Source of the DNA: a virus
Length of the DNA stretch: 27,516 nt
IMG/VR virus record: IMGVR_UViG_3300024264_000138
Location: 1-27,516 of that record
Strand: one strand, 5' to 3'
Shown here: positions 11-27,148 of the stretch, in pieces
Layout: every line of letters starts with the position of its first letter
Numbering within the stretch: position 1 is the stretch's first letter
Notes under the pieces: model-generated
Seen by the model: the letters and a program-made list of their open reading frames with translations, nothing else
Databases searched by the model: none
Told to the model about the DNA's origin: nothing
Position numbers and translations under genes: made by a program

Positions 11-3000
11 TTAGTTAAATTTTCTTGTTTTAAATTTTCTTGTTTTAAAAGTTTGTTTTCTTTTTATAAGCTTTCTTTTTTTAGGTTTCTCCTCCTCTTT
101 TATACCTAATTCCCAGTCTTGCCAACCAGCAAATAATGCTACTCTCTCCCATAGCTCCATATCACTTTCTGTTGCCTTAACTACGTTGTTTATTTTCTTA
201 ACAACTCTATCTAAAGGTATATTTGTAAGAGCAGATACGACATTACCACCAGCTAAAAAAGCTGGGTTATCTAAACTAAAACCTTTTGTCATCATCTCTT
301 TTTTATTCCATTCATAAGCTCTAGCAGCTTGATTTATACGAGAGATCTTAGCTGATATAGGTGGTGAAATTTTAAGAAGCTCATATCCAACCTTTTCATA
401 CTTAGGTCTTTTCTTTTTAGACTCTTTAATTATTCTTATAATAGCGTTTTTACCTACAGAAATAACTGATCCCGCAATACCAGTACCTCTTAGTAATGAA
501 TCAGCCATACCGTTAGCAATACTAACATACTTTTCTTGTTTCTTTTCATCTTCAGGTTCTTCATCACCGAAAGCCATAGCAAATAAAGCTTGCTGCACAG
601 CATTGAATATAATGTTTTGAACTGTTGTGTAGTATATTATTTTACTTATATTAGTTTTAGCATCACCTCTACTATTTTTAAGATCACGTATCGCTTTATC
701 TGTTAATCTAGCATACTGAGCAGGTGTATTAGCAAAAGCTAATATTAATCTACCTAGTGGTCCGGCTTGCTGCGCTGATATTTTATCTGGTCTAGAAGAC
801 TGTTGAGACTCTTCAGCGTTTTCTCTAAAATCTTGAAAAGCTTTTTCCTCCGCTTGAGCTTGATCCATACCTTCTTTCATATATGTTTTAGCCCTGTTTC
901 TATAGAAAGTAGCTCCTCCAGATGCAATAGCAAAACTATCCGCTATTTGTGTAGGTGCAAAACCTAACTGTAACAGTTTGTTTATAACACCTCTTGGTCC
1001 TTCCTGTTTAGCCATGTCTGCTATATCAGCTTCACTGACATTTATACGTAAACCAGATCTACGTTCTTTCAAGAAGTCTGAGTTCATCAATGTAGTAAAG
1101 TCTTTCCAGTATTGTTTTTGATTACCAAAAGCTTTAGCTGCAGCATAAGGATTGTTGTCGGTAAAATTAACGAAGTTAACAGCAGACAAAGTTTGAAGTA
1201 TAGCCGATCTAGTATTAAAGAACATTATAGCACCAACACTACCCTGCAGCCAATCGGTAAATCTACCGGTTAAGCTATCATCAGAGAAAGATCTATTTCT
1301 ACCAGTCTTCATACGTTGCAAACTGTTCTCTAAGGCTTTAACATAATTTATACCATAAGCAGCTTCTAATTTGTTTTTATTTTCTTTGCTGAATATTGCA
1401 TCAACATTTGCTTGCCATTGCTCTAAGTATTTAACTCTTTTAATAGTATTTAAACCTCTTAACATATCAGTGGATATACTACCAGATACCCAACTCTCTC
1501 CAGGTTCTGGATACATATCGCCTTTTTGTATAGCCATTAATTGATCTGCAAATACCTGTAGCTCAGCATTGTTTGCTACAAAACTATTTAAATCTTTTAG
1601 ATCATTTTTACTTATACCGGGCACTTCAGTACCTTGCTTACTCCAAACATACACCCTAACAGCTTGTTCTCTAGTCCAGGGCTCTCCAGGTATTTTTTTA
1701 CGTAAATTTTTAGGCACAATACCTAATTGTTTTTTTAATGCTCTATAATCGTTCATCATAGCAAGTCTTGCTGAAGACAAATCATTCATAGCTCTAGCGT
1801 AAGGGTCTAGTAAGTTTTGTTTATACCAAGCCATTTGAGCATCACCTTCTTTTCCTTTACCCAATGTCTCGTACAATAAACCTACAAAATCTTGAGCAGA
1901 ATAAGCTATACCTCTAAATACTTTACCTCTACTAGCTCCAGCTACTTGAGCTTTAGCTTTTCCGTAAACTTTCTCAGAAGCAATACCAGTAGCACCTTCT
2001 ATTATATCGTTAAAGTCTTTGTTTAGTTTACTAGGTTTACTGAATTTAACGTAAGCTTGTTGTACTTTAGATTTAACATCTAAAACACTTAAAGCATCTC
2101 TAACGGCTTTAACGTTTTTAGTAGCATCATCTGCAAAATAAAAATCATTGTAACCTTCAGCAGCCTTATCCACCATCCATCTAGCTTTTGCTTGAGCGGT
2201 GCCATCACCTAAGCCTGTTATGTTTTCTAATGGAATATTTAACCCCATACTATCTAAAAATTCCTTTATAGGACCAGCAGCATCTTGAGGTCTAGCGGTT
2301 AAAACAAACACATCTCTCTCGCCTTTTGCATCATTTATAAATTTAGCAATATCAAGTAAAGGACCTTTTTTGCCATCTATAACTTTACTAAATTCTGAAA
2401 AATCAAATGTAGCACCATTAGCTTCCATTTCACCGGCTTTGTTAGCGAATTCAGTAGCTGTTAAAAATCCTGTCTTACCATCAGGCATTTCGTACACAAC
2501 TCGACTTTTTGATCTAGCTAATGTATCGTCAAAGTCAAATACCCTAATTTTTTTAATTGGAGCATCAGCATTTCTAGCTATAGACAATGCTTTATCTATA
2601 TTACCTAAGTTGTTTAATATGTTTTGATTAGTGTTTTTGTTAGATACTTTAGAGAACTTTAAACTGTTAGGTGCCTTGTTATTGTTTGTATTTTTTGTTT
2701 TTACGTAATCTCTATAATTTTCAAGTATATTTCTAACCATAATGCCTTCAGCACTAAGTTTATTTCTACTAACACTACCTATTTTTTGAATTTGACTAGA
2801 GTTTAAGTTTTGAGCTATAAACTCAGCCATATTTATGCCAGTAAAATCTTTACCTATATCTAATTTATAAGTACCTATAGGTATTTGGTCAACAGCATCT
2901 TTACCTAAGAATGTTATAGGATCTACAAAATCTCTAACAGAAGCACCACTAGCATCTTTTTGAACTCTCATTCTTTCTGATATTACCGCCTGCTGCAACT

Positions 3001-6000
3001 TATCAACGTTTTGCTTTACTGTTTTTCTTAAAACGCTTTCCGATATTTTACCATTAATAAACTTATCAAGTGTAATTAAAAAGTCCTTGTTAGCGTTAAA
3101 AAGTTCAATTAAATGCTCATTATGCATTAGCTTATTTTGGTTTTTAGTGTCACCTCTTTCAGGCTTCATACTAAAACTTGTCATAGGGACCATCCCTTTA
3201 AATAAACCGGTAGCTCTATTAACTTGAGACTCTAAAACATCAGCGACAAACCCTAAAGATTCCTTGCTTTTATTTTTGATAACAAAATTTACTAAAGATG
3301 AATAGCCTCTGTTTAAAAGTTCTCTATTTGATTTTATAGTTTCATCCACAGTGCTTCCTTCGGCTGATAATAGTTTTTCAACCTGTAATTTAGCTTCACT
3401 AGGTGTAACACCCTCCTTTAGTACAATGTTTTCAACTTTTCTTCTGAAACCACCCCAGTTTCTCGGAGCAAAGACTGCCCTACTATTACTGTAATCAGAA
3501 CCAGTACCTACAATAACATCATCTCCAAAAACTTTTTTAAGTAAATTACTATAACCTTTTACTCCATTAGTTATTTCTTTATAGGTCAAAGGTCTTCCAC
3601 CTAAAGTTATTCTAGTATCTCCAAATCCTACAGAGTCAACAATAGCTTGCTGCACAGACTTAGGTAAATCGTCAAATGTTTTTCCTTTTGGTATTAGATC
3701 TTTAATAAAAAATTTATACGTAGATTTTAACTTCTCGGAGTTTTCAACTGAAGTTATATTTTTTTTACCACCCTCTTTTATATTAAGTAAACCTCTAAGT
3801 TTTTTATATTTAGATATATTATCGTTTATATTTAATAATACATCTCGAGGTTCTATACCTAATTCTTCTGATATTTTCTGTATTGCTAAAACTTCTTGAG
3901 CAACTTGTATATCACTTAATCCTTTAGTTAGTTTTTTAAACTCTTTTGCTTTACTAAACTTAGCACCAGCTTTAATATCTACTCTAGCCTTAGGCTCTGC
4001 TGTTTCAGCTGCTTTTTCTACTATTAAGTTTCTAAAAGACATTGCAGCTAAACCTTTTATGGTTTGCGCTTCAGCAGCTCTATAAACGCTACCGTCTATT
4101 TTACCTAAAAGATCTTTGTAGTCTTGTACGGTCTTAGTAGGATCTTTCTCCCACTTACCTTTATCGTTTTTTCTATATAAAGCGTTTAGTATATTGTTAG
4201 GTATAAATGTTGATTTACCTTCTATAGTACTAGGACCAGCATAAGCATCTGGTAGTAAAGAAAAATCCTTTGCAGCATTATTATCTAGAAACTGTCTTAA
4301 GTTTCTTAAACCATCAAGTTCTTTTTTCTGTATATTTCTAGTCTTTTTAGTAAATACTTCTGGATTTAAACCAAAGGCTTTACCAAGTGTTTTAGCTAAG
4401 TTAGTACCGATGTTTCTACTCTCACCAAAAGTTTTAATTGGTTTGGTCTTTAAGTCAGTTTCTATGGCTTTATCAATCACATTAGAAACTTCTGAGCCAC
4501 TAACTCCTAAATTACTTGCTACAACACCAGTATATGTTTTAAGCTTCTTAGGACTTATCTTTTTAACAGGTTTGTCTTTAGCATCAACTACAACTTCTTC
4601 AGCTGCTACACCCTTAGCCTCTGTAACATCATCTGTAAACTCTTCACCTAACACTCTTTTCGATGCTTCAATCGCTCTAGCAGGTAAAAATTTATTTATA
4701 TAAGCAGCTAATGGCACACCTGATTCTGGCTTATATTCCTTTATAAGATCAAATATACCACGCTTACCTGTTTCTATTTCATCAGTTAATAACTGTTTAT
4801 CAAAATTTGGAGCATCTCTTCTACGCTCTACGATTTTATTTGTTATTGGTTTAAACTTTTCTAGTATATCAAAAGCACCGGCAACACCTTGTTCATCATA
4901 TATTCTTTGTACCTCTTGAGAAGCTTCTTCGGATTTAGCTTCTTTTACTATTGTTTCATCAGTAGTTTTTACTTTTGGTTTTACTAATTCACCTTCAATA
5001 CCTTCTGCGGTTGCTTTTTCTTGAGTCTTTGTTAACTTACCTTTAGCAACGCTCTTATTGTAGTCTTTTACAAAGTTGTAAACATCCCTACCCTCATTAA
5101 ACTTAACTTTAATACCTATACTTTGTAAAGCTCTACGTATTACATCTCCTATTTTTGTAAATACATTTTCGTTAAACTTTATATCACCTGATGTTAAAGC
5201 GTCAGAAAAAAGAGTAAGCACCTCCTCGCTTTGAGTAGCTTTATCTGAGTCTTTATATTGTTTTAATCTTTCAGCAAAATTACTATTCTTTATTTTAGAA
5301 GTATCTATGTTGTTTATGTAATTGCTTAAGGATTCTCCTAAAGCTATTTGAGTTTCAGGTGAACCTTTTACTGTATTAAAAAGTACAGCATGTAAAAATT
5401 CATGACCAGCTATGTTGACTGCTTTTTGTTTTTTAGAAACGTCTTTATTTATGATAATTGTTTGCGCACCTGTTTCAGGGTTTTGATATATAAAACCTTG
5501 CTCTTCTGATGCTTTTTTATTATCTACATCAATATTATTTTCTTTTATAAATTCAGATACAGCTTCAGAGTTTTCTAAAGGTTTAAACGTTAAACCCTCA
5601 ACACCTTTAGCTATTTTTTCTACAGACTGTATATTTCTCTCTACTCTTCTATCACTAGATTCTTTAAATAAAGTTTTGTTTACTTCCTGTAGAGTTTTTA
5701 ACTTGTCTTCAGCTAACTTTTTAACAACGTCTTTTTGACCACTTTTATTTATAGTAGATTTTAGTTCGTTAATTTTACTTTTGTTATTAGCGTAAGATCT
5801 TACTTCATTAGGCGTCATGTCGTTTAACGCTCTGCTGTTTTGCTTTTTTATATTTAATATTCTAGCTGTCTCTAACTCTATAGCTTCATCTATTAAAGCC
5901 ACTCCTTCAGGTTCAGCACTGGCCTTATCCTTATATAGTTCAGATATTTTTTTACCAGACTCTTCAACTACATTTTTTACTTGGTCAGGCATTAACACAT

Positions 6001-7423
6001 ACTCTGCAGCTTGAACAGCATCAACATTTCTATTCCTAACTGCCCCAACCCCTGTTCCTGATATACCAAATACAGATCCAACAATAGCGTCTTCAGCAAT
6101 CAACTTCCAGTCTCTACCAAGGTCAAAATCTCTACCTGGCAACATAGCCGCGTCTAGTAACAGTGTACTGGTCCTTGTTAAAGCTTCAGAACCTGCTTCG
6201 CTAGCAGTGTTGATCCCTAGACCTTTGATTAATGACTCTGATCCGCCCCTTATTAAGTCTTTAGCAGCTTTAGCATTACCTTGATTAGATAATATACCTG
6301 CTCTTTTTAACACGCCTCTTGTAGCTAACTCGAAACCAGCTTCAATTACACCAGTTGCTAAAGCATTTGAAACTAAAACACCTGTATTTATAGATGGATC
6401 TTTTTCAAACTCTTCTTCAAATTTACCACCAGCAGAGCTACCACCTAACACAATAAGCCCGCCTAAGCCTAAACCAGCAGCTACTATAGAAGGAAGTGAC
6501 TCTAAAGAAGCTCCAACTGCTCTTTCACCAGCTAAAAGATAATTACCTTCAGCTATATCATCTACTATATTTTGATTTTCGTATTTTCTTATGTATGGAT
6601 CTAGTTTTTCTGTAAAAGTTTGAAAGTCTAAGCTTCTAGGAGAACCCATAGGGCCTATAGTTCCTGACTTTACAACTCTCATTATAGCCTCTTTATCATC
6701 GGCAGTTCCCTCGTAATCATCTCCAAAAACCTCTAAGCCAGCTTCCAGTATAGAAAACTTAGTCATATCTAAAAAGTCTATAGTACCTTTTGCAAAGTTA
6801 CTAAAACCTCTAGCCGTTTGAGCCGCGTAGCTCTTTATTAAACCAGGTTTGTTTTTTTCTTTTAATAACTCCTTTGCTTTATTATCTAATTCTTCATCTG
6901 AAACTTTAAAATCAATAATACCCTTAGAATTATAATCTTCTATTATTTTTTTTCCTGCTATTTCCTTGAGCTTTACTTTTTCTTCGTTTTCCAACTTGTT
7001 AAAATCTTCACTAGAAAAATCAATGAAATCTATATTGTCTTTAGATTGTTTTTCTCTATATAGTTCTCTAGGTAACCTTTGTCTGTCGCTGTAGCTCAAC
7101 TGCTTTTTTTCATCAGCAGTCATTGTTTTAAATTGTTCTAAAGTAACTTCACTATCTTCTTGTGAATCCGAAGAAGTATCTTCCGAAAGCGACTCCGTAA
7201 CGCCCGCTTGTGATGCTGTCATTGGCTGCACTACATCCGCATCCGCTGCAGCGCTTGTTGGAAAATCCTGTGTCTCGTCTTTAATTTCTTGCTCTACAAC
7301 TATACCTTCTTCATCTAAAACACCTATAAAAACAGCATTGCTGAATTTACTTAAAAATTCTTGTTCTTTAGCATCAGATACATCATAAGGATTACCGTCA
7401 ACTTCATATCTTTTTACTGGCAT
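11..7423 (-). CDS. giant multidomain internal virion (polyvalent-type) protein, 2470 aa
   Basis: A 2470-residue ORF at the end of the structural module, where T7-like and crAss-like phages encode large proteins packed in the head and ejected with DNA. In order it shows: a small N-terminal domain (about 1-50); an Ala/Asp/Ser-rich linker of higher GC (about 53-85); charged helices; a Gly-rich hydrophobic stretch (about 310-335) that could insert in a membrane; a zinc metallopeptidase motif HEFLH (about 674-678) with a downstream EEVLTLFSDA segment that could supply the third ligand; a segment resembling sigma-70 region 2 (about 893-930); a HAD phosphatase domain with DFDDT (about 1628), LTARP (about 1706) and FADD (about 1759); and a C-terminal region with FFNTRSAILQ (about 2070) and FANTPAQYARL (about 2230), like the large polyvalent protein families. 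It ends in a duplicated KTRKF tag. The start is ATG after an A-rich leader, 16 bases past the previous stop. The internal-virion role is inferred from size and position; the HAD motifs are the clearest. Confidence 0.85.
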   Translation of the reverse strand: MPVKRYEVDGNPYDVSDAKEQEFLSKFSNAVFIGVLDEEGIVVEQEIKDETQDFPTSAAADADVVQPMTASQAGVTESLSEDTSSDSQEDSEVTLEQFKTMTADEKKQLSYSDRQRLPRELYREKQSKDNIDFIDFSSEDFNKLENEEKVKLKEIAGKKIIEDYNSKGIIDFKVSDEELDNKAKELLKEKNKPGLIKSYAAQTARGFSNFAKGTIDFLDMTKFSILEAGLEVFGDDYEGTADDKEAIMRVVKSGTIGPMGSPRSLDFQTFTEKLDPYIRKYENQNIVDDIAEGNYLLAGERAVGASLESLPSIVAAGLGLGGLIVLGGSSAGGKFEEEFEKDPSINTGVLVSNALATGVIEAGFELATRGVLKRAGILSNQGNAKAAKDLIRGGSESLIKGLGINTASEAGSEALTRTSTLLLDAAMLPGRDFDLGRDWKLIAEDAIVGSVFGISGTGVGAVRNRNVDAVQAAEYVLMPDQVKNVVEESGKKISELYKDKASAEPEGVALIDEAIELETARILNIKKQNSRALNDMTPNEVRSYANNKSKINELKSTINKSGQKDVVKKLAEDKLKTLQEVNKTLFKESSDRRVERNIQSVEKIAKGVEGLTFKPLENSEAVSEFIKENNIDVDNKKASEEQGFIYQNPETGAQTIIINKDVSKKQKAVNIAGHEFLHAVLFNTVKGSPETQIALGESLSNYINNIDTSKIKNSNFAERLKQYKDSDKATQSEEVLTLFSDALTSGDIKFNENVFTKIGDVIRRALQSIGIKVKFNEGRDVYNFVKDYNKSVAKGKLTKTQEKATAEGIEGELVKPKVKTTDETIVKEAKSEEASQEVQRIYDEQGVAGAFDILEKFKPITNKIVERRRDAPNFDKQLLTDEIETGKRGIFDLIKEYKPESGVPLAAYINKFLPARAIEASKRVLGEEFTDDVTEAKGVAAEEVVVDAKDKPVKKISPKKLKTYTGVVASNLGVSGSEVSNVIDKAIETDLKTKPIKTFGESRNIGTNLAKTLGKAFGLNPEVFTKKTRNIQKKELDGLRNLRQFLDNNAAKDFSLLPDAYAGPSTIEGKSTFIPNNILNALYRKNDKGKWEKDPTKTVQDYKDLLGKIDGSVYRAAEAQTIKGLAAMSFRNLIVEKAAETAEPKARVDIKAGAKFSKAKEFKKLTKGLSDIQVAQEVLAIQKISEELGIEPRDVLLNINDNISKYKKLRGLLNIKEGGKKNITSVENSEKLKSTYKFFIKDLIPKGKTFDDLPKSVQQAIVDSVGFGDTRITLGGRPLTYKEITNGVKGYSNLLKKVFGDDVIVGTGSDYSNSRAVFAPRNWGGFRRKVENIVLKEGVTPSEAKLQVEKLLSAEGSTVDETIKSNRELLNRGYSSLVNFVIKNKSKESLGFVADVLESQVNRATGLFKGMVPMTSFSMKPERGDTKNQNKLMHNEHLIELFNANKDFLITLDKFINGKISESVLRKTVKQNVDKLQQAVISERMRVQKDASGASVRDFVDPITFLGKDAVDQIPIGTYKLDIGKDFTGINMAEFIAQNLNSSQIQKIGSVSRNKLSAEGIMVRNILENYRDYVKTKNTNNNKAPNSLKFSKVSNKNTNQNILNNLGNIDKALSIARNADAPIKKIRVFDFDDTLARSKSRVVYEMPDGKTGFLTATEFANKAGEMEANGATFDFSEFSKVIDGKKGPLLDIAKFINDAKGERDVFVLTARPQDAAGPIKEFLDSMGLNIPLENITGLGDGTAQAKARWMVDKAAEGYNDFYFADDATKNVKAVRDALSVLDVKSKVQQAYVKFSKPSKLNKDFNDIIEGATGIASEKVYGKAKAQVAGASRGKVFRGIAYSAQDFVGLLYETLGKGKEGDAQMAWYKQNLLDPYARAMNDLSSARLAMMNDYRALKKQLGIVPKNLRKKIPGEPWTREQAVRVYVWSKQGTEVPGISKNDLKDLNSFVANNAELQVFADQLMAIQKGDMYPEPGESWVSGSISTDMLRGLNTIKRVKYLEQWQANVDAIFSKENKNKLEAAYGINYVKALENSLQRMKTGRNRSFSDDSLTGRFTDWLQGSVGAIMFFNTRSAILQTLSAVNFVNFTDNNPYAAAKAFGNQKQYWKDFTTLMNSDFLKERRSGLRINVSEADIADMAKQEGPRGVINKLLQLGFAPTQIADSFAIASGGATFYRNRAKTYMKEGMDQAQAEEKAFQDFRENAEESQQSSRPDKISAQQAGPLGRLILAFANTPAQYARLTDKAIRDLKNSRGDAKTNISKIIYYTTVQNIIFNAVQQALFAMAFGDEEPEDEKKQEKYVSIANGMADSLLRGTGIAGSVISVGKNAIIRIIKESKKKRPKYEKVGYELLKISPPISAKISRINQAARAYEWNKKEMMTKGFSLDNPAFLAGGNVVSALTNIPLDRVVKKINNVVKATESDMELWERVALFAGWQDWELGIKEEEKPKKRKLIKRKQTFKTRKFKTRKFN
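17..46 (-). repeat. perfect 15-bp tandem repeat encoding KTRKF twice
   Basis: Two exact copies of AAAACAAGAAAATTT (minus strand) sit directly before the last Asn codon and stop of the giant protein, giving KTRKF-KTRKF-N. A degenerate third unit (KQTF) precedes them. The scaffold-like protein at 19669-20793 ends in a single KTRKFN encoded by nearly the same bases. Confidence 0.9.
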
Positions 7424-7447
7424 ATTTTATTTAATTTTATTAGTTAA
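7424..7447 (-). promoter_or_regulatory. A-rich SD-less translation leader, repeated junction sequence (copy 1)
   Basis: Between the end of the 588-aa gene and the giant gene, the minus strand reads TTTAACTAA, then AAAATTAAATAAAAT, then ATG. It has no Shine-Dalgarno sequence. The same arrangement recurs before the capsid gene (19654-19677) and before the gene starting at 26774. A role in translation initiation is inferred. Confidence 0.5.
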
Positions 7448-9206
7448 AGTCTTGATTAGCTTTACGACCACCATCTCTACTCTGTTTTTTTACAAAATCT
7501 TCAAAATCTTTTTTACTTTGCTCTGGAGAAAAAGGCGTATTGTTTTTTAACCCTTCTGTAAAACTATTTTTAGAGCCTTTTGGAAAAGTTTTGTCTATAA
7601 TTCTCATTATTTCTCTACTAGCTTTATCACCGCCGACTTCACCTTTTATTAAGTCTCTAAGTAATCTTTTACCTTGTGAACTATTTATAGGAAAAGACTT
7701 CTCTTCTTGCTCTTCTAACTCTATAATGGCATCATCTCCTTTTCCAACTTTAAACTCTTTATCTGGTGGTCTAACTGTTATTAACCCATCTTTAAATGAC
7801 ATTTCTTTATAAAAACTACCTTCTTCTCCTACAGAAAATCTATCCTCTAAGAAGCTGACCGGATCTTTAAGAAAAGAGTCTATATAGTTTTTAGCTATAA
7901 TAGGTGCCTCTGATTTATTACCTTCTTCTATTGGTTTAATAGCTCGTCTACCAAGTTCTTTGAATATTATAGGATCATTTTCTTTTATACCAGGCATAAC
8001 TTCTTGTAGAGTTTTAACATCTTGTGATGTTGCTTTTCTAAAGTTACCTAGTTTTTTAACAGCTTCCATTTCTAATTGACCTTCATAGAAAGCCAGTCTA
8101 TCTTCTCTAGATTTACTAAAAAAATCTTCAGTCTTCATATCTCCCCAACCAAATCTGTTTCTTACAAAATCAATTTGATCTTTTTCTGATCTAGCATCTA
8201 AACCAGCAGCTTTACTCTTTATTTCTGACTTAAACGCTGAGTTATTAAATAGCTTGTTATAATCTAAAACTCTCTCAGTGGTTAAAGACTTTGTACCGTC
8301 TTGATTACTTAATGTTTGCTGTAATGTAGGAGTAACGTATAGACTTTCGTTAGCAGTGCCGTTTTTATTTATTAAACCTGAGTTTTCCATCACCGAGTTA
8401 ATATCTATAGCTGGAGATATTTCGTTTACAAACTGACCTTCTTCTCCCCATTTAGCTAAGTTTCTCTCCCAAGTTATTTTAACTCTACCATCTTTGTCAT
8501 ACTCTAATTCATCTTCATCAAAAGCGTTAGCATTTTTCCAAGCATTGTATGTCTTACTATCTTTGTCTAAGTAACCTACAACCTTTAAACTATTAGTACC
8601 ATCTTCATTATATACTAGATCTTTTTCATAACTAAAACCTTCTAAAGCTTTATTTTCTAAAGCCCTCATAGCCATTAAGTTCTGTAGCTCGTTTATATTA
8701 CTATCACCTGCGACAGCATAATTATCAACCAGCTGTTGAGCACTTTTATCTTTTGTCATCTCAAGAGCTGATGTCACATAACCTATCTCTTGAGCACTAT
8801 TAGACATATAACTTTGATAAGCCTTTACTTTATCTTTATACTCTTTTAAAATGACCTTATCTTTGGGTGGATTCAATGTTAATTGAGTATTATACCATAT
8901 TGCTCCTTTATCACCACCACCGTCGCCATCGGCTAGTAGTTTTGCTCTTTCAGTAAACTTTTGTTGAAGCGTAACGTCTTTTATTGTTTTAGACATTTTG
9001 TTTCTAAGAGCACTTTGCTTTAAATCACCCTGTATCATGGTGGTGTTTATAGCTTCATCTTTCTTTTTCTGAACCTCTTCACCTTTTTTCTTAGCTGCAA
9101 AATAAGCTTCTATGCCCTTATTCATTACGTCACCTATTTTAGCAACACCTTGAGCCCATACCTCAGCCGATCTATCTATTATTATTTGTGGGTTTCTGTA
9201 ACTCAT
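7440..9206 (-). CDS. putative internal virion protein, 588 aa
   Basis: I do not recognise a defined domain. The protein is hydrophilic and mostly helical by composition. Its N-terminal 70 residues begin SYRNPQIIIDRSAEVWAQGV and continue into a Lys/Glu-rich helix (about 40-55) that looks like a coiled coil. The middle (about 200-330) has acidic, beta-like patches, and the C-terminus is basic and ends in DFN. Its position between the 238-aa and 2470-aa genes matches the gp14-gp15-gp16 order of internal core proteins in T7-like phages, so a gp15-like role is suggested by order only. The ATG start follows an A-rich leader that begins at the previous TAA-TAA double stop. The last codons (TTTAACTAA) are shared with the ends of the scaffold-like and giant proteins. 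Confidence 0.75.
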   Translation of the reverse strand: MSYRNPQIIIDRSAEVWAQGVAKIGDVMNKGIEAYFAAKKKGEEVQKKKDEAINTTMIQGDLKQSALRNKMSKTIKDVTLQQKFTERAKLLADGDGGGDKGAIWYNTQLTLNPPKDKVILKEYKDKVKAYQSYMSNSAQEIGYVTSALEMTKDKSAQQLVDNYAVAGDSNINELQNLMAMRALENKALEGFSYEKDLVYNEDGTNSLKVVGYLDKDSKTYNAWKNANAFDEDELEYDKDGRVKITWERNLAKWGEEGQFVNEISPAIDINSVMENSGLINKNGTANESLYVTPTLQQTLSNQDGTKSLTTERVLDYNKLFNNSAFKSEIKSKAAGLDARSEKDQIDFVRNRFGWGDMKTEDFFSKSREDRLAFYEGQLEMEAVKKLGNFRKATSQDVKTLQEVMPGIKENDPIIFKELGRRAIKPIEEGNKSEAPIIAKNYIDSFLKDPVSFLEDRFSVGEEGSFYKEMSFKDGLITVRPPDKEFKVGKGDDAIIELEEQEEKSFPINSSQGKRLLRDLIKGEVGGDKASREIMRIIDKTFPKGSKNSFTEGLKNNTPFSPEQSKKDFEDFVKKQSRDGGRKANQDFN

Positions 9207-17213: not shown

Positions 17214-17227
17214 TATTTTATATTTAA

Positions 17228-17260
17228 ATATATGGAGCGGTTTTACCCGCCCCTATATAT
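17228..17260 (-). promoter_or_regulatory. strong RNA hairpin between the auxiliary and ring protein genes
   Basis: On the minus-strand transcript GGGGCGG pairs with CCGCUCC around the loop GUAAAA (seven pairs, one G-U). One bulged A follows, then a further six A-U pairs from the ATATAT arms. The G-U pair becomes an A-C mismatch if read on the plus strand, so the structure fits minus-strand RNA. No U-tract follows, so a classical terminator is not supported. Transcript processing, 3'-end protection or a partial terminator are possible. Confidence 0.6.
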
Positions 17261-17269
17261 TATTACCTG

Positions 17270-18100
17270 TTAATTAATCTTTTTATCTATAGATTTGTAT
17301 ATTTCAACACCTTCATCTGTTTTTAAGAAGTATGCAAATGCTGAATAAGGATTTTCATCGAAAGGAACTTCCATTAATTTTCTTCCGTTACTAGCCCAAG
17401 TAAAGTATCTCTGGTCATCTGACAAGTTTATGATATTAGCCTCAGTGGCTTGTATTGCAAAATTCCTTAATTGTACATTTTCATCATTAGCTAAATCTAA
17501 GAACAAACCTGGACTCATCTTAGCAAACAATAGTAAATCTCTTTTTAGCTCTTTAGAACTCATCTTAGACACCTTAGATCCTAACTCAACTCTCAATATT
17601 GCTTCAGCATGGTCTATATCCATACCTCTTGCGGCATTTAAAGCATCAATTTGGAGTTCTAATATATCTAGTTCATCTTCTGCTATCTCAACTTGATCAA
17701 GTTCTTTGTATAATCTATTTTTCAAAGGGTGATACAAAGATAATACTTTTTGAAGATTTTGTTTTTCTTTTGGAACAAATAACGCACCATCTTTAAATAT
17801 AATGTGACCTAAAGTAGCTTCACCTTGTTGCTCTTTTACGAACGGAGAAGATTGGTTTGTTGCATATCTTATTTCTTTTTGTTCACCAGTGTTTTTATCA
17901 AAGTGTAGTAAAGCGTGTTTTGACGTGTGTTTACTAGGTATTGTAAATGTTATTGGTGATTTATTAGAATTTAATACGTATGTTCTATCTTTTATTTCCC
18001 AACTTGGTTTAGCTGGTTGTGTTTTTGTAGGAGCTTTTGCTACTACTTCTTGTTGAGGAGCAACCTCAACTTTCTTTGCTGGTGCTTTTTTTGCAGCCAT
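17270..18100 (-). CDS. putative auxiliary head or minor virion protein, 276 aa, with basic Lys/Ala/Pro N-terminal tail
   Basis: I do not recognise the family with certainty. The first 32 residues are a Lys/Ala/Pro/Val-rich, histone-tail-like low-complexity arm (AAKKAPAKKVEVAP...). A small beta domain follows (about 33-115) with strands around TYVLNSNKSPITFTIPS and HIIFKDGALFVP. The rest is an acidic helical region: a coiled-coil-like segment (about 130-165), then helices ending YFLKTDEGVEIYKSIDKK. Its position directly after the major capsid gene suggests a head-associated protein. The basic tail could contact DNA or acidic partner surfaces. It is bracketed by two RNA hairpins, so its expression may be separated from its neighbours. 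Confidence 0.65.
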   Translation of the reverse strand: MAAKKAPAKKVEVAPQQEVVAKAPTKTQPAKPSWEIKDRTYVLNSNKSPITFTIPSKHTSKHALLHFDKNTGEQKEIRYATNQSSPFVKEQQGEATLGHIIFKDGALFVPKEKQNLQKVLSLYHPLKNRLYKELDQVEIAEDELDILELQIDALNAARGMDIDHAEAILRVELGSKVSKMSSKELKRDLLLFAKMSPGLFLDLANDENVQLRNFAIQATEANIINLSDDQRYFTWASNGRKLMEVPFDENPYSAFAYFLKTDEGVEIYKSIDKKIN

Positions 18101-18127
18101 AATATAATATAATTAAATAGTTTATAA

Positions 18128-18170
18128 GGGTAATAATTACCCCCGTTAGTTCAACGAGGGTAAGAATTAC
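18128..18170 (-). promoter_or_regulatory. overlapping alternative hairpins and 13-bp direct repeat after the capsid gene
   Basis: In the 86-base gap below the capsid gene, the transcript can form ACCCUCGUU/AACGGGGGU (nine pairs, 18139-18161, loop 18148-18152), extended by A/U pairs beyond an internal loop. The overlapping 15-mer at 18128-18142 (plus-strand GGGTAAT-A-ATTACCC) can instead form its own stem. The two share the ACCC bases and exclude each other. On the plus strand GGGTAATAATTAC (18128-18140) and GGGTAAGAATTAC (18158-18170) are direct repeats with one mismatch. No U-tract follows. Confidence 0.55.
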
Positions 18171-18186
18171 ATTTGTTATTTAGTGA

Positions 18187-19653
18187 TTACACACCTTTGA
18201 ATAATACAAAGTTGTTAGCACCTTGTACACATAAACATCTTTCAGATAAGAAGTTTACTTCCATAGCATCTAGATCAGATGTAGAAGCTCCACCGGCAGA
18301 ACCAGTTACCCATTGCTTCATTCTTCTGTCATTTGCTTGAGAAGCTCTATATCTTACGTGTAAGAAAGGACGTCTGATGTTTGTACCTAATACTTGATCA
18401 TAAACCGTAGAAGTTCCAGCTGGTACTAATACACCTTCGATAGAAGAAGTTCCAGTCATAGCTCCACGAGTAGAAGCATCGTTTAAGTATTTCCAGTCAG
18501 TCTTATAGAAGTCATAAGAACCTCTTCTGAATCCAGAGAAACCTAAGTTCAATGCCATTTCTTCAGAGTTTTCAAATAATCCGTAAGCAGTACCACCTTG
18601 AGCACCTCCAGAGATTGCAGCTAACATATCGTCAAAATCTAAAGACGTTTGTCTTTGTAAGAATAACATGTTTTCTTCAATAGCTCCTTGAGTATCTAAA
18701 TTTTTCAAGATATCATCGAAAGTATCAAGACCTGCAGAAGCAGTAAACCCTACGTTTACGTTACCTCTATCTTCGATAGCAGCGAATAAACCTTGAGTAC
18801 CTTTATACCCAGCAGCAGCAGCTGATCCAGCACCAGCCCCTGTAGCTTTTTCTCCTTCTACTACAGACATTTCTAGGTAGTCTTCAAAACGTAGTCTAGT
18901 TTCAGACTCAGCTTTTAAGTACCATAAATATCCAGATGTTCCGTCTTCAGTAGCAACTTCTACCCAACCGATTTGAGCCATATCAGATCCGTTTACAACG
19001 TATTTATTTCTGATGATGATTGGTGAGTTAGAAAATTGAGTGAAAGAAGGATCTACAGATACATATCCGTCAGCAGCTCCTGCGCTTACAGTAGAGTTAG
19101 GTGTAGATGAACCTTTTCCATATTCAGATCCAAATACAAAAATCTTTACACCTGTAGCAGCTAAACCAGCGATGGTTGCAGCAGAGTAAGGACTTACAAC
19201 TAAAGCTCCAGTTGTTAAGTTAGATGAAATTACAACAGCTTTGATTTCAAAACCTGTTGAATCCATAGCAACGATAGTAGCTCCAGGAGATACAACGTTT
19301 GCAACGTAATCTTTAGGATCAGCTGGGTTTAAAGCAACTGGGATAGTAATTGTACTTGTTGTTCCTGCTACACCACTAGTACATCCTTCGTAAGAGATAT
19401 GTAATCTATTTTGCTCAGACCAAATTACTTGATCAGAAGTCATTGGCATTTCAGCACCTACCATTCTTAAGAATCCAGATAAAGTTCTGTTTCCGTAACG
19501 CTCTACTTCTTGTTCGTAGATTTCTGGTAAGTATTGTTGTGCGAAAGTATCAGTATTACCTGCACCTCCGTCGTTAAACTTTAGATAATTGCTATCTAAA
19601 ATTTCTTGTTTTTGAGATGGTTTCAATGAACCAAATGTTGGACTTAAACTCAT
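18187..19653 (-). CDS. major capsid protein (probable HK97 fold), 488 aa
   Basis: Size, position (after terminase, portal and scaffold-like genes) and sequence all fit a major capsid protein. The N-terminal arm is LSPTFGSLKPSQKQEILDSN. Next come FLPEIYEQEVERYGNRTLSG (about 42-61) and VIWSEQNRLHISYEG (about 77-91), segments I associate with capsid proteins of related marine phages. A Thr/Ala/Val-rich beta region spans about 95-200, and the helical and E-loop-like body follows to about 460. Composition differs from its neighbours: two hand-counted lines gave 38-40% GC versus about 30% elsewhere, with more CGT Arg and C/G-ending codons, as expected of the most highly expressed gene. No separate capsid protease is visible in the window. 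The ATG follows a repeated A-rich leader shared with two other genes. Confidence 0.85.
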   Translation of the reverse strand: MSLSPTFGSLKPSQKQEILDSNYLKFNDGGAGNTDTFAQQYLPEIYEQEVERYGNRTLSGFLRMVGAEMPMTSDQVIWSEQNRLHISYEGCTSGVAGTTSTITIPVALNPADPKDYVANVVSPGATIVAMDSTGFEIKAVVISSNLTTGALVVSPYSAATIAGLAATGVKIFVFGSEYGKGSSTPNSTVSAGAADGYVSVDPSFTQFSNSPIIIRNKYVVNGSDMAQIGWVEVATEDGTSGYLWYLKAESETRLRFEDYLEMSVVEGEKATGAGAGSAAAAGYKGTQGLFAAIEDRGNVNVGFTASAGLDTFDDILKNLDTQGAIEENMLFLQRQTSLDFDDMLAAISGGAQGGTAYGLFENSEEMALNLGFSGFRRGSYDFYKTDWKYLNDASTRGAMTGTSSIEGVLVPAGTSTVYDQVLGTNIRRPFLHVRYRASQANDRRMKQWVTGSAGGASTSDLDAMEVNFLSERCLCVQGANNFVLFKGV

Positions 19654-19677
19654 TTTTGTTTAATTTTGTTAGTTAAA
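19654..19677 (-). promoter_or_regulatory. A-rich SD-less leader of the capsid gene, repeated junction sequence (copy 2)
   Basis: Reading on the minus strand: TTTAACTAA (the end of the scaffold-like gene), CAAAATTAAACAAAA, then ATG. It is nearly the same as the junctions before the genes starting at 7423 and 26774. There is no Shine-Dalgarno sequence even though this should be the most strongly translated gene. Confidence 0.5.
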
Positions 19678-20793
19678 TTTTCTAGTTTTTACTTTTAATT
19701 TTGAAGAATCAGCACCTGAAATAGCTCTAACTTTTAAACCATTAATAAACACGTCACCACTACTAGTTTTTCTAGGTTCAGTTGAAATGTTTTTTGATTT
19801 GACCATAACATCTCTAACAGCATCAGCTTTGCCTTGCTCATAAAAATGTTGTGCTATAGTATCAGCGTTTCTAGCAGCATATAAAGCTTTGTGGTAACCT
19901 TTAGTATCTTTAACCTCTCCTTTGTCATTTAGGAACGTCCCAATGAAGTTAGAGATATCAGATTGTGCTTCTGCTACCTTTTGTGGATTTTTCACGCTGT
20001 ACCTAAATTTACTTTCACCAACATTGAAATCAAAACCTTTGAAATCGTCGGTTAGTAATTCATTAGTACGTTTTAAAAATTCCGAGTGTTTTGCTTTACC
20101 AGCTTTCTGCTCTTCGTTATATCGGTTAAAAAAGTCAGTTGCTTTTTGTTGGTCTTGAGTTACGCCTGGTCTCAACTTGATCTCATCGTAATATTTACTC
20201 TTAGTTTCCTCTAAAAAGTTTCTAGCTTTTGCAACTTCTTCTTTAAATGCAAGTTTCTTCTTGCGTATGTCTCTTTGCTCATCGATATCTTCATCATATG
20301 AAAAATCTTCTAACATTAGACTTATATCGTCACCTTCTAAATAAGGTTTCGTTTGTTTATAATATTCTTTTAATAATGTTTCGTTATCTACATTAGAGTA
20401 ATCAGCGTTAAGCCTGACATAGTCATTTATGTTACCACCAGTCTCCTCCATAAAAGAAACTAGCTTTTCGATGTTTTCTGGTAAAGGTTTACCAATTACT
20501 TTTTCATCTCTAATAGCTTCTTTATATTCAGCCTCTACTTCTTTAACCTCTTCTTCAACTTCTTCGACTAGCTGTATAGGCGAGTTTGACTCTTCACTAG
20601 TAACCACTGTTTCTTCAACTACAGGCGCTTCTTCTTCTTTTATTACCACTTTTGTAACCTCTGGCTCTGTCTCAATCAAAGGTTCTTTCATGCTAACCTT
20701 AGTAACATTGTTATCTGGTGTAGCTAATTTTTTAGGTGTCTTTCTTTTTTTTAATTTAAATTCACCCTCTTGTTTTACTGTTTGTTCTGACAT
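19669..20793 (-). CDS. scaffold-like head assembly protein, 374 aa, ending in KTRKFN
   Basis: It lies between portal and capsid genes, the usual place of a scaffolding protein. A short basic start (about 10-25, KLKKRKTPKK) precedes a very acidic Glu/Val-rich low-complexity region (about 45-100). Helical, charged segments follow (about 165-260 with a coiled-coil look). The C-terminus is small and basic (SKLKVKTRKFN). An acidic, helical body with a basic C-terminal tail fits phage scaffolding proteins, in which the C-terminus often binds the coat protein. No protease motif is seen. The final six residues match the duplicated tag at the end of the 2470-aa protein. The ATG follows an A/T-only leader 31 bases below the portal stop. 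Confidence 0.7.
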   Translation of the reverse strand: MSEQTVKQEGEFKLKKRKTPKKLATPDNNVTKVSMKEPLIETEPEVTKVVIKEEEAPVVEETVVTSEESNSPIQLVEEVEEEVKEVEAEYKEAIRDEKVIGKPLPENIEKLVSFMEETGGNINDYVRLNADYSNVDNETLLKEYYKQTKPYLEGDDISLMLEDFSYDEDIDEQRDIRKKKLAFKEEVAKARNFLEETKSKYYDEIKLRPGVTQDQQKATDFFNRYNEEQKAGKAKHSEFLKRTNELLTDDFKGFDFNVGESKFRYSVKNPQKVAEAQSDISNFIGTFLNDKGEVKDTKGYHKALYAARNADTIAQHFYEQGKADAVRDVMVKSKNISTEPRKTSSGDVFINGLKVRAISGADSSKLKVKTRKFN

Positions 20794-20824
20794 AATATAA
20801 TAATATAAAATTAATAAAGTTTTT

Positions 20825-26290: not shown

Positions 26291-26517
26291 CAATACTGAA
26301 GATCATACTCAATGGATATTGCCATGTTAGAATTAAACTTCTTCCATGGCATTACCTCATTGTTTTTTTTGATATGTATGTTATAAGAATTGTCTTCTTC
26401 GTCTAGCAGTATATAAGCTATCCTGTGACCTCCATAAACTTCTTGACCTACAGAGTAATGCATCGCATCATTTTTGTAGTCTGAACCTATGCTTATCTTT
26501 CTTATAATAGAACTCAC
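26290..26517 (-). CDS. small conserved-looking phage protein, 75 aa
   Basis: Function unknown. It has a compact beta-rich composition: a basic N-terminus (SSIIRKISIGSDYKND), then HYSVGQEVYGGHRIAYILLD, and a C-terminal half with YNIHIKKNNEVMPWKKF and ISIEYDLQY strands. The start is GTG, overlapping the preceding gene's TAG stop by one base (TAGTG). No in-frame ATG upstream fits better. The stop overlaps the next gene's ATG, so the three genes are probably translationally coupled. I recall similar short proteins next to terminase genes in uncultured marine phages but cannot name a family. Confidence 0.65.
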   Translation of the reverse strand: MSSIIRKISIGSDYKNDAMHYSVGQEVYGGHRIAYILLDEEDNSYNIHIKKNNEVMPWKKFNSNMAISIEYDLQY

Positions 26518-26774
26518 TATTCCGCTACTTGAAGAGTTTTTGATTCTTCAGCTTCTACCTTTTCAAAAGATCCATCAGCTAAGTTTACAGTGATATCACC
26601 GTATTGTTCCTTTAATTCTGATTTAACTTCTTCTAACGCTTTAGCAGCTTCAAAATGTGCTCCTAAGAATTCTGCTTTTTTAGCTTCCAAGAAACCGATT
26701 TCAACTAATATAGCGTTAACCTTTCCTTGTCCTTCTTTTACTGATTTTAATTGTTCTTCTGTTAATTTTCCCAT
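26517..26774 (-). CDS. small coiled-coil protein, 85 aa
   Basis: Function unknown. Charged helical protein: two helices, about 4-35 (EEQLKSVKEGQGKVNAILVE and on) and about 36-57 (FEAAKALEEVKSELKEQYG), form a likely helical hairpin. A short beta segment follows (ITVNLADGSFEKVEAEE). It could be a small oligomerising accessory or virion factor. The ATG follows an A/T-rich leader that repeats the junction sequence before the capsid and giant protein genes. The stop is TAG immediately followed by an in-frame TGA. Confidence 0.65.
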   Translation of the reverse strand: MGKLTEEQLKSVKEGQGKVNAILVEIGFLEAKKAEFLGAHFEAAKALEEVKSELKEQYGDITVNLADGSFEKVEAEESKTLQVAE

Positions 26775-26857
26775 TTTATTTAATTTAATTAGTTATTTTT
26801 ATATATAATCACACTGTTTATTGTAAAATTACTCATTACGTAATTACTATACTTTAT
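26775..26857 (-). promoter_or_regulatory. 83-base AT-rich intergenic region with palindrome and repeated leader (copy 3)
   Basis: It contains the palindrome ATTACGTAAT (26835-26844) within a 6-bp inverted repeat (AATTAC/GTAATT, 26827-26845). Next to the ATG it carries the leader AACTAATTAAATTAAATAAA, matching those at 7424 and 19654. I find no clear Bacteroidota -7 element (TAnnTTTG), so a promoter is possible but not shown. Confidence 0.3.
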
Positions 26858-27148
26858 TTACTTCAAAGCTACTATGTCAGTAGCAGTAGTACCTGTAGAT
26901 AAAACATAGTCCACAATCACATTTAAAACCGATCCACTTTGAACGTTTTTAAATACAATAGCTTCGTTAGCTGTTGGAAGCCCTGAGCCAGAAGCTCCTG
27001 TTACACCAGAAAGTATTACCTTTACATCACCACCGGTTCCTACGTATAAGCAAGAACTTTTTAAGTTAGTTGCTACACTTATTGTGTCGTTTTTAGTTAC
27101 ACTAGCAGCAAAAGTGCCAAAGTCTGGTTGATTTGCGTATTGTCCCAT
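26858..27148 (-). CDS. small beta-rich virion-associated protein, 96 aa
   Basis: A Gly/Ser/Thr/Val-rich protein with alternating strands. GQYANQPDFGTFAASVT opens the chain, followed by LYVGTGGDVKVILSGV (about 34-49), a Gly-rich loop, and FKNVQSGSVLNVIVDYVL (about 66-83). It looks like a compact beta-sandwich or trimeric decoration module of the kind found in many marine phage genomes. The family is recognised only loosely and no enzymatic motif is present. It lies 8 bases after the holin-like gene and has an A-rich (poly-A interrupted by T) leader. A capsid-surface or spike-associated role is inference from composition. Confidence 0.6.
   Translation of the reverse strand: MGQYANQPDFGTFAASVTKNDTISVATNLKSSCLYVGTGGDVKVILSGVTGASGSGLPTANEAIVFKNVQSGSVLNVIVDYVLSTGTTATDIVALK

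Follow-up and report, generated by a model that had tools for sequence, protein, structure and literature searches.

Three distant gene boundaries in the window, a virus record of 27,516 bases analysed over its whole length, carry nearly the same sequence between the end of one gene and the ATG of the next, which raises the question of whether such junctions serve as a translation signal of this phage, as points where recombination exchanges gene modules, or in some other way. The window is 66% A+T, and all 19 genes assigned to it, picked by eye from the list of open reading frames, lie on the minus strand. The genes and sites that bear on the question are the following.

11..7423, minus strand: gene of the 2470-aa giant protein, with a polynucleotide-kinase-like stretch (PHROG 415) and the C-terminus KTRKFKTRKFN
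7424..7447, minus strand: site 1, TTTAACTAATAAAATTAAATAAAAT, followed by the ATG of the 2470-aa gene; last codons of the 588-aa gene (Phe-Asn-stop) and A-rich leader
7440..9206, minus strand: gene of a fast-evolving 588-aa protein, upstream of site 1
17270..18100, minus strand: gene of a conserved 276-aa protein (PHROG 34748; structural model with pLDDT 77.8)
18187..19653, minus strand: major capsid gene, 488 aa, PHROG 13704 virion structural protein; a Calle_1 relative is annotated as major capsid protein
19654..19677, minus strand: site 2, TTTAACTAACAAAATTAAACAAAA, followed by the ATG of the major capsid gene; Phe-Asn-stop of the putative scaffold gene and A-rich leader
19669..20793, minus strand: gene of a 374-aa putative scaffold protein, between the portal and major capsid genes, with a conserved C-terminal peptide
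26517-26774, minus strand: 85-aa gene, downstream of site 3
26775..26796, minus strand: site 3, ATAACTAATTAAATTAAATAAA, followed by the ATG of the 85-aa gene; A-rich leader

The putative role of the 374-aa protein as scaffold is taken from its gene position, and the protein matched no family; the model of the 276-aa protein matched no PDB fold at E 0.001 or better, and the window contained no Rfam family at gathering score. Relatives were collected through the capsid protein (the best 80 of at least 600) and through the giant protein (the best 80 of 158, with 50 of those 80 loci searched for a capsid gene). Among named phages, 85 records carry a capsid relative (68 Flavobacterium, 15 Cellulophaga, 1 Maribacter and 1 unclassified), all with less than 60% identity to the capsid protein of the window.

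C-terminal codons and an A-rich leader at the junctions

The near-identity of the three boundaries noticed in the preliminary description is real, lies on the minus strand, and is correctly placed to within 1-2 bases. The codons for Phe-Asn that it ascribed to the upstream genes are present in sites 1 and 2; site 3 overlaps no gene end, the previous gene stopping at 26858. A degenerate pattern derived from the three sites, with up to 3 mismatches allowed, matches exactly these 3 places in the window, against a mean of 0.03 matches in 100 dinucleotide shuffles, and thus exceeds the expectation from AT-rich sequence. With the start-anchored leaders of relatives as a stricter null (521 distinct leaders and 125,066 cross-gene pairs, scaffold and 276-aa genes excluded), the best pair in the window, identical at 21 of 23 positions, would be expected 0.002 times among 153 pairs, and a pair with at least 20 identical positions 0.05 times; these chance figures are optimistic, because the pattern was chosen after looking. 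An additional TTTAACTAA stands at the end of the 2470-aa gene itself (window 11-19), absent from the preliminary list.

As a translation signal, the junction is supported for the part 3′ of the stop codon, the A-rich leader, and is not supported as a single 24-nt linker, TTTAAC being coding sequence. When the profile was scanned over both strands of 2.19 Mb of relatives, which contain near-duplicates and one record (L002) 98% identical to the window, 18 of 21 matches had an ATG within -2 to +9 nt of the match end and 3 lay elsewhere. The ATG-linked matches precede the 85-aa gene family (11), the giant gene (3), the capsid gene (2) and starts not assigned to a gene (2), and site 3 is the most often matched of the three sites in relatives (11 of the 21 profile matches). 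The string AAATTAAA exceeds its shuffled expectation in the leaders of the capsid gene (44 observed, 10.5 shuffled), the giant gene (18, 2.5) and the 85-aa gene (33, 3.2), starting mostly 10-13 nt 5′ of the ATG and also elsewhere (-17, -42), and it is absent from the leaders of the portal, terminase, 409-aa, 1048-aa, scaffold and 276-aa families. Because it is enriched in some gene families and absent from others, AAATTAAA is regarded as a frequent, non-universal start signal.

Leaders of this kind have a counterpart in Flavobacterium johnsoniae, where initiation is described as favoured by an A-rich stretch from -14 to -11 and by A at -3 and -6 (Baez et al. 2019, PMC6847099). Set against that description, the positions -3, -6 and -11 to -14 are all A in site 2; site 3 has A at -3, -6 and -12, and in site 1 the A's stand at -3 and -12 to -14, with T at -6. 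All three are A-rich, stand at gene starts and have no Shine-Dalgarno sequence, as in the initiation region outlined in that source. The phage leaders differ from that region in being more uniform, through AAATTAAA, in some families. A Shine-Dalgarno-free leader with a AAATTAAA core about 12 nt 5′ of the ATG and A's beside the ATG would be expected for phages that infect Bacteroidota; A's near -12/-13 and -3/-6 would favour the ribosome and make base pairing with 16S rRNA unnecessary.

The other half of the junction belongs to the upstream proteins. Among the best 80 of at least 600 capsid relatives, the usual C-terminus of the protein encoded 5′ of the capsid gene is GLKVKxISGxDSSKLKIKT[KR]KFN or FNN, with some variation, and its stop codon is followed by a variable A/T-rich spacer, mostly 5-20 nt, to the capsid ATG; exceptions are L032, without a gene in the scaffold position, and L078, with a spacer of 2 nt. 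Since this C-terminus is conserved among relatives, TTTAAC at site 2 is protein sequence. Scaffold endings in FN are encoded 36 times as TTTAACTAA, 3 times as TTTAATTAA and once as TTCAACTAA, and 21 more genes end in FNN; in twelve window genes, the Asn codon is AAC in 264 of 577 cases, and the excess of AAC at scaffold ends, counted among related sequences, may hint at some constraint at the DNA level. For the 588-aa protein, the C-terminus had to be judged mainly through the gene adjoining the giant gene, because its family has only 6 recognised members. The closest relative among the matches listed with the same gene pair, L082, reads TATAACTAA (Tyr-Asn) at site 1 with an identical spacer, and L105 likewise has Tyr-Asn; since the Phe codon of site 1 is Tyr in these relatives, the near-identity of sites 1 and 2 is partly coincidence.

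An alternative account derives the DNA similarity from a C-terminal capsid-targeting peptide, KTRKFN, shared by the scaffold and the giant protein. KTRKFN does end both proteins in the window, whose tail score was reached by 6 of 5000 shuffles of the giant tail (a test made after the match had been seen), basic-hydrophobic tails end many giant proteins of relatives, often other than KTRKFN, and over 45 tail pairs (3 of 48 dropped, two for open ends and one for a scaffold that was not found) the mean score lay above residue shuffles in all but 10 of 300. In the same pairs, however, tails from the same record matched no better than permuted ones (191 of 500 permutations reached the score), and in three records whose capsid protein is 97-98% identical, the giant protein ends quite differently, in ...GGITFDEF. 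The shared tail is striking within the window and not group-wide, and we consider this account improbable. In L082/G001, the scaffold ends in KTRKFN and the giant protein in KTRKFKTRRFN.

The proposal that the sites are recombination points that swap gene modules could draw on the unrelated genes flanking them and on a site similarity above that of other leaders, but no gene-content break was seen at any site in the relatives compared. Of six relatives aligned at site 1, L082 retains unbroken similarity through it. In three others (L083, L084 and L101), the alignment is lost between about 9050 and 7265. This stretch, too diverged or replaced to align, comprises the greater part of the 588-aa gene and the beginning of the giant gene and is occupied in them by a gene of about 530 aa still matching the 588-aa protein; site 1 lies inside this stretch and not at its edge. 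The last two (L105 and L113) show no alignment around the site. For sites 2 and 3, the comparison covered one relative, L002, which aligns at 98% across both without a break. With similarity, wherever relatives align, continuing through the sites or the edges of the diverged block elsewhere, and with the Phe codon of site 1 replaced by Tyr in two relatives, exchange at these linkers is very improbable. A product of AT-rich background alone, for which the base composition of the window speaks, is scarcely credible against the 3 matches where 0.03 were expected and the 18 of 21 profile matches at start codons. The junction is a compound of two ordinary things, the Phe-Asn-stop codons of the upstream gene and an A-rich translation leader beside them, and is itself ordinary.

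Element E before the scaffold and 276-aa genes

A second sequence, here called element E, is far more strongly conserved than the junction. It has two copies in the window, and hairpins lie near the second.

20794..20817, minus strand: element E copy 1, TTATTAATTTTATATTATTATATT, immediately followed by the putative scaffold ATG
18130..18170, minus strand: hairpin that separates the capsid gene from element E copy 2, with -19.8 kcal/mol and z -4.8; it probably terminates the scaffold-capsid unit
18101..18124, minus strand: element E copy 2, TAAACTATTTAATTATATTATATT, immediately followed by the ATG of the 276-aa gene
17227..17261, minus strand: hairpin 3′ of the 276-aa gene, with -18.2 kcal/mol and z -5.1; it is probably a terminator or an attenuator

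The consensus of element E, about 24 nt long, is (T)TAA[CT]TATTTAATTATATTATATT; it consists almost only of A and T, stands directly against the ATG and is found in most relatives. When leaders were compared among relatives, a set that includes near-duplicates, 2,651 of 5,280 scaffold/276-aa pairs were identical at 19 or more of 23 positions, far above other gene pairs, with 48 of 5,135 for the capsid/giant pairs that correspond to sites 1 and 2. Over the last 24 nt, the 68 distinct leaders of the scaffold gene hold 25.3 bits of information and the 56 of the 276-aa gene hold 30.0 bits, compared with 5.7-19.2 bits for eight other genes, the highest value being that of the portal leader, which lies inside the end of the terminase gene.

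The occurrence of element E is near-exclusive to these two genes. With a profile built from these leaders, a score of at least 12 followed by an ATG was found at 161 places in 2.3 Mb, of which 77 precede the scaffold gene, 64 the 276-aa gene, 4 the 85-aa gene and 16 genes left unassigned, 15 of the last beginning, by eye, like scaffold or 276-aa proteins. Weaker matches to the profile (score at least 12) away from an ATG numbered 82 in the same 2.3 Mb, against about 17 expected from simulated sequence. The string TTAATTATATTATATTATG, with up to 2 mismatches, occurs in 47 of 50 whole records with 78 matches (2 for the reversed control), 74 of them within 1.3 kb of the capsid gene, including 10 that sit 0.4-1.2 kb beyond its end, and 4 away from it. 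Matches of 16 or more preceding an ATG were absent from 262 kb of other regions in 8 records. Copies usually number one or two per record.

Records reached through the giant protein (capsid identity 54-98%) have element E with a score of at least 12 directly before the scaffold ATG in 40 of 48 cases; the 8 misses comprise 4 with a shorter form, 1 with a related form, 2 weak matches and 1 record (G033) in which the scaffold was not located and which was counted as a miss. Two variants occur, one shortened by 5 nt and one with TATC at its end. From a second source, loci in genome bins, element E was recovered in 14 of 22; the bin names comprise 14 of 22 from Bacteroidota groups and 8 others, which suggests Bacteroidota hosts. 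The element shows no conserved -35-like block above -24, differs from the favoured translation leader in having T, not A, at -6 and -12, and is missing from the capsid gene itself. TTAAC occurs about 22-25 nt 5′ of the ATG in element E; the capsid-gene leaders of relatives have it at the same distance, owing to the Phe-Asn codons of the scaffold gene, possibly by chance.

Hairpins flank the 276-aa gene on both sides (window 17214-17269 and 18125-18186; folding covered the window sequences), and relatives have a hairpin-like stretch 5′ of this gene at the same place with a differing sequence, of the CCCTCGTT..AACGGGGG or GGGCGCTTCGGCGCCC types. From these hairpins and the gene order, we infer the borders of the units: the scaffold gene would be the first of a scaffold-capsid unit, and the 276-aa gene would form a unit of its own between hairpins.

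Host-type promoters in related phages

The -7 promoter box of Bacteroidota is given as TAHHTTTG, and F. johnsoniae promoters of this host type leave a leader of 33 nt on average (PMC6847099). Of the 85 records with a capsid relative, the five examined for element E, referred to here as the named phages, are all without it: Maribacter Panino, Flavobacterium elemoE, Cellulophaga phi40:1 and phi46:3, and the environmental record ctfjg026. Their capsid proteins are 22-50% identical, and their gene order of portal, scaffold-position gene, capsid and 276-aa-type gene is that of the phages with element E (phi46:3 has extra genes). In place of element E they carry host-type boxes, and no sigma factor of the kind described below was found in them. 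TAHHTTTG precedes the scaffold-position gene in 5 of 5, the next structural gene compared in 5 of 5 and the 276-aa gene in 2 of 5 (elemoE and ctfjg026), and 20 boxes were counted in the 4.6 kb of leaders of the five, compared with 2 in the reversed control. Likewise, L342, L344 and L345, three loci from genome bins of which the last two have identical leaders, carry the box before the scaffold gene and no element E.

The leaders of phages with element E show no excess of the box: 15.1 kb of them yielded 5, the same number as the control, and 6.2 kb yielded 2, where the control gave 1. The late leaders among them represent 14 loci out of the best 80 of at least 600 capsid relatives, and the non-late leaders 8 records; in the non-late regions, too, where host-type promoters were considered as a candidate, the box was not enriched. 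Within 90 nt of the start, TAHHTTTG occurs in none of 66 leaders of the 276-aa gene and in 7 of 80 of the scaffold gene, 2 of these being Panino and ctfjg026 and the other 5, from phages with element E, all lying inside the portal gene. A host promoter of this type at element E is thus not supported for either gene. Element E differs from the -7 box of that source in its sequence, in abutting the ATG where host-type promoters would leave a leader, and in occurring in phages without box enrichment; the five named phages have the box in the place of element E before the scaffold gene. Element E thus occupies a position that a promoter takes in relatives.

Element E as a candidate promoter and its possible reader

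Taken together, we consider it likely that the junction is made of C-terminal codons and an A-rich leader and that element E is, most plausibly, a phage-specific promoter. Judged by comparison among relatives, element E is probably such a promoter, for it holds a conserved position where transcription units would start and where relatives have a promoter. It would do the job of the TAHHTTTG promoter found at the same place in related phages, with transcription starting at or a few bases before the ATG, and could be read by a phage-encoded sigma-70-family factor. A plain translation booster is disfavoured because element E has T at -6 and -12 and the capsid gene lacks it. The promoter reading is weakened by the strict spacing to the ATG, equally expected of a translational operator, by the lack of a -35-like block although the phage sigma factor seems to have region 4, by the presence of the host-type box before the 276-aa gene in only two of the five named phages, and by the surplus of weaker matches away from an ATG.

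Scaffold proteins are known to regulate themselves in other phages, a precedent for the alternative that element E is an operator at the mRNA level, in which a phage protein, for example the scaffold or capsid protein, would bind the AU-only leader and co-control translation of the scaffold and 276-aa genes. Strict abutment to the ATG at 141 scaffold and 276-aa gene starts, the usual one or two copies per record and the unstructured leader would all suit such an operator. Against it stand the host-type box at the same place in related phages, the lack of a box excess in phages with element E, and the position of copy 2, which would need a new transcript start because it follows a probable terminator hairpin. 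We regard the operator as unlikely, though worth keeping in view beside the promoter.

A candidate reader of the element as promoter was found in records of the group, together with a further promoter-like motif.

L220:13259-14023, minus strand (also L233-L328): sigma-70-family protein, near ERF, PDDEXK-like and helicase-primase genes
L215, L218, L220, L223, L224, L227, L229, L230 and L231 (records G002, G036, G009, G017, G045 and G032): loci of the bipartite motif

The protein belongs to the sigma-70 family by homology to regions 2 and 4: with relatives limited to the best 80 of 87, Sigma70_r2 is matched by 63 of 73 members and Sigma70_r4 by 46 of 73 at E 0.01 or better, although member 1 falls below the Pfam curated cut-offs. 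Its PDB profile match reaches 1e-9, to SigA and FliA chains, and its structural model matches sigma chains at 5e-6 with a TM of only about 0.3. The protein is present in 16 of 40 records of this phage group and, by profile search, in 0 of the 5 named phages; among 20 records with a strong helicase-primase match, the 4 without the sigma gene end before its expected place. The helicase match of the named phages is weak or absent, and because the rest of their replication module differs too, the contrast in the sigma gene may stem from distance. As a fragment, the window lacks the sigma gene, and the presence of one in its phage is inferred from record G002, whose capsid protein is 97% identical.

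The bipartite motif, often TTNRCA, an A-rich stretch and GATAATATA, then AA[CT]GTAAC, lies in the early/middle (non-late) region. Non-late leaders contain GATAATATA in 15 of 151 cases against 0.65 expected by shuffling, and it was absent from 71 late-region leaders and 51 leaders of named phages. In G036, the motif and the sigma gene share a strand, with the motif about 4.4 kb upstream, so that the sigma factor could serve other promoters; the position would fit an order of early motif, sigma factor and then element E. A search for a T7-type polymerase (PF00940) gave 0 of 45 records and was uninformative, as the control likewise had no match. G036 also encodes a GroEL-type chaperonin (L218:4648-6201, PHROG 5725).

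T4 late promoters, of the TATAAATA type, are read by the phage sigma factor gp55. Element E resembles them in being AT-rich and compact, at capsid genes and accompanied by a phage-encoded sigma factor; it differs in being longer, in occurring mostly once or twice per record and in being fused to the start codon, and the sigma factor here seems to keep region 4, its reading of element E being a proposal. Among the open-licence PMC full texts listed by literature searches, no title concerned a promoter, an element like E or a sigma factor in this phage group.

In its most specific form, which we put forward tentatively, the promoter reading would make element E a capsid-specific late promoter read by the phage sigma factor, with transcription starting at the start codon, so that one 24-nt sequence would set the start of both transcription and translation, the mRNAs of the capsid units would be leaderless, and the host promoter would have been abandoned. 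If this is true, relatives of the Flavobacterium, Maribacter and Cellulophaga phages would form a lineage that gave up host promoters for a promoter system of its own, and the hosts of these leaderless transcripts would be bacteria whose ribosomes ignore Shine-Dalgarno signals. The precise 24-nt sequence and the sigma factor can be tested together, and element E is a candidate marker for capsid units in metagenomes.
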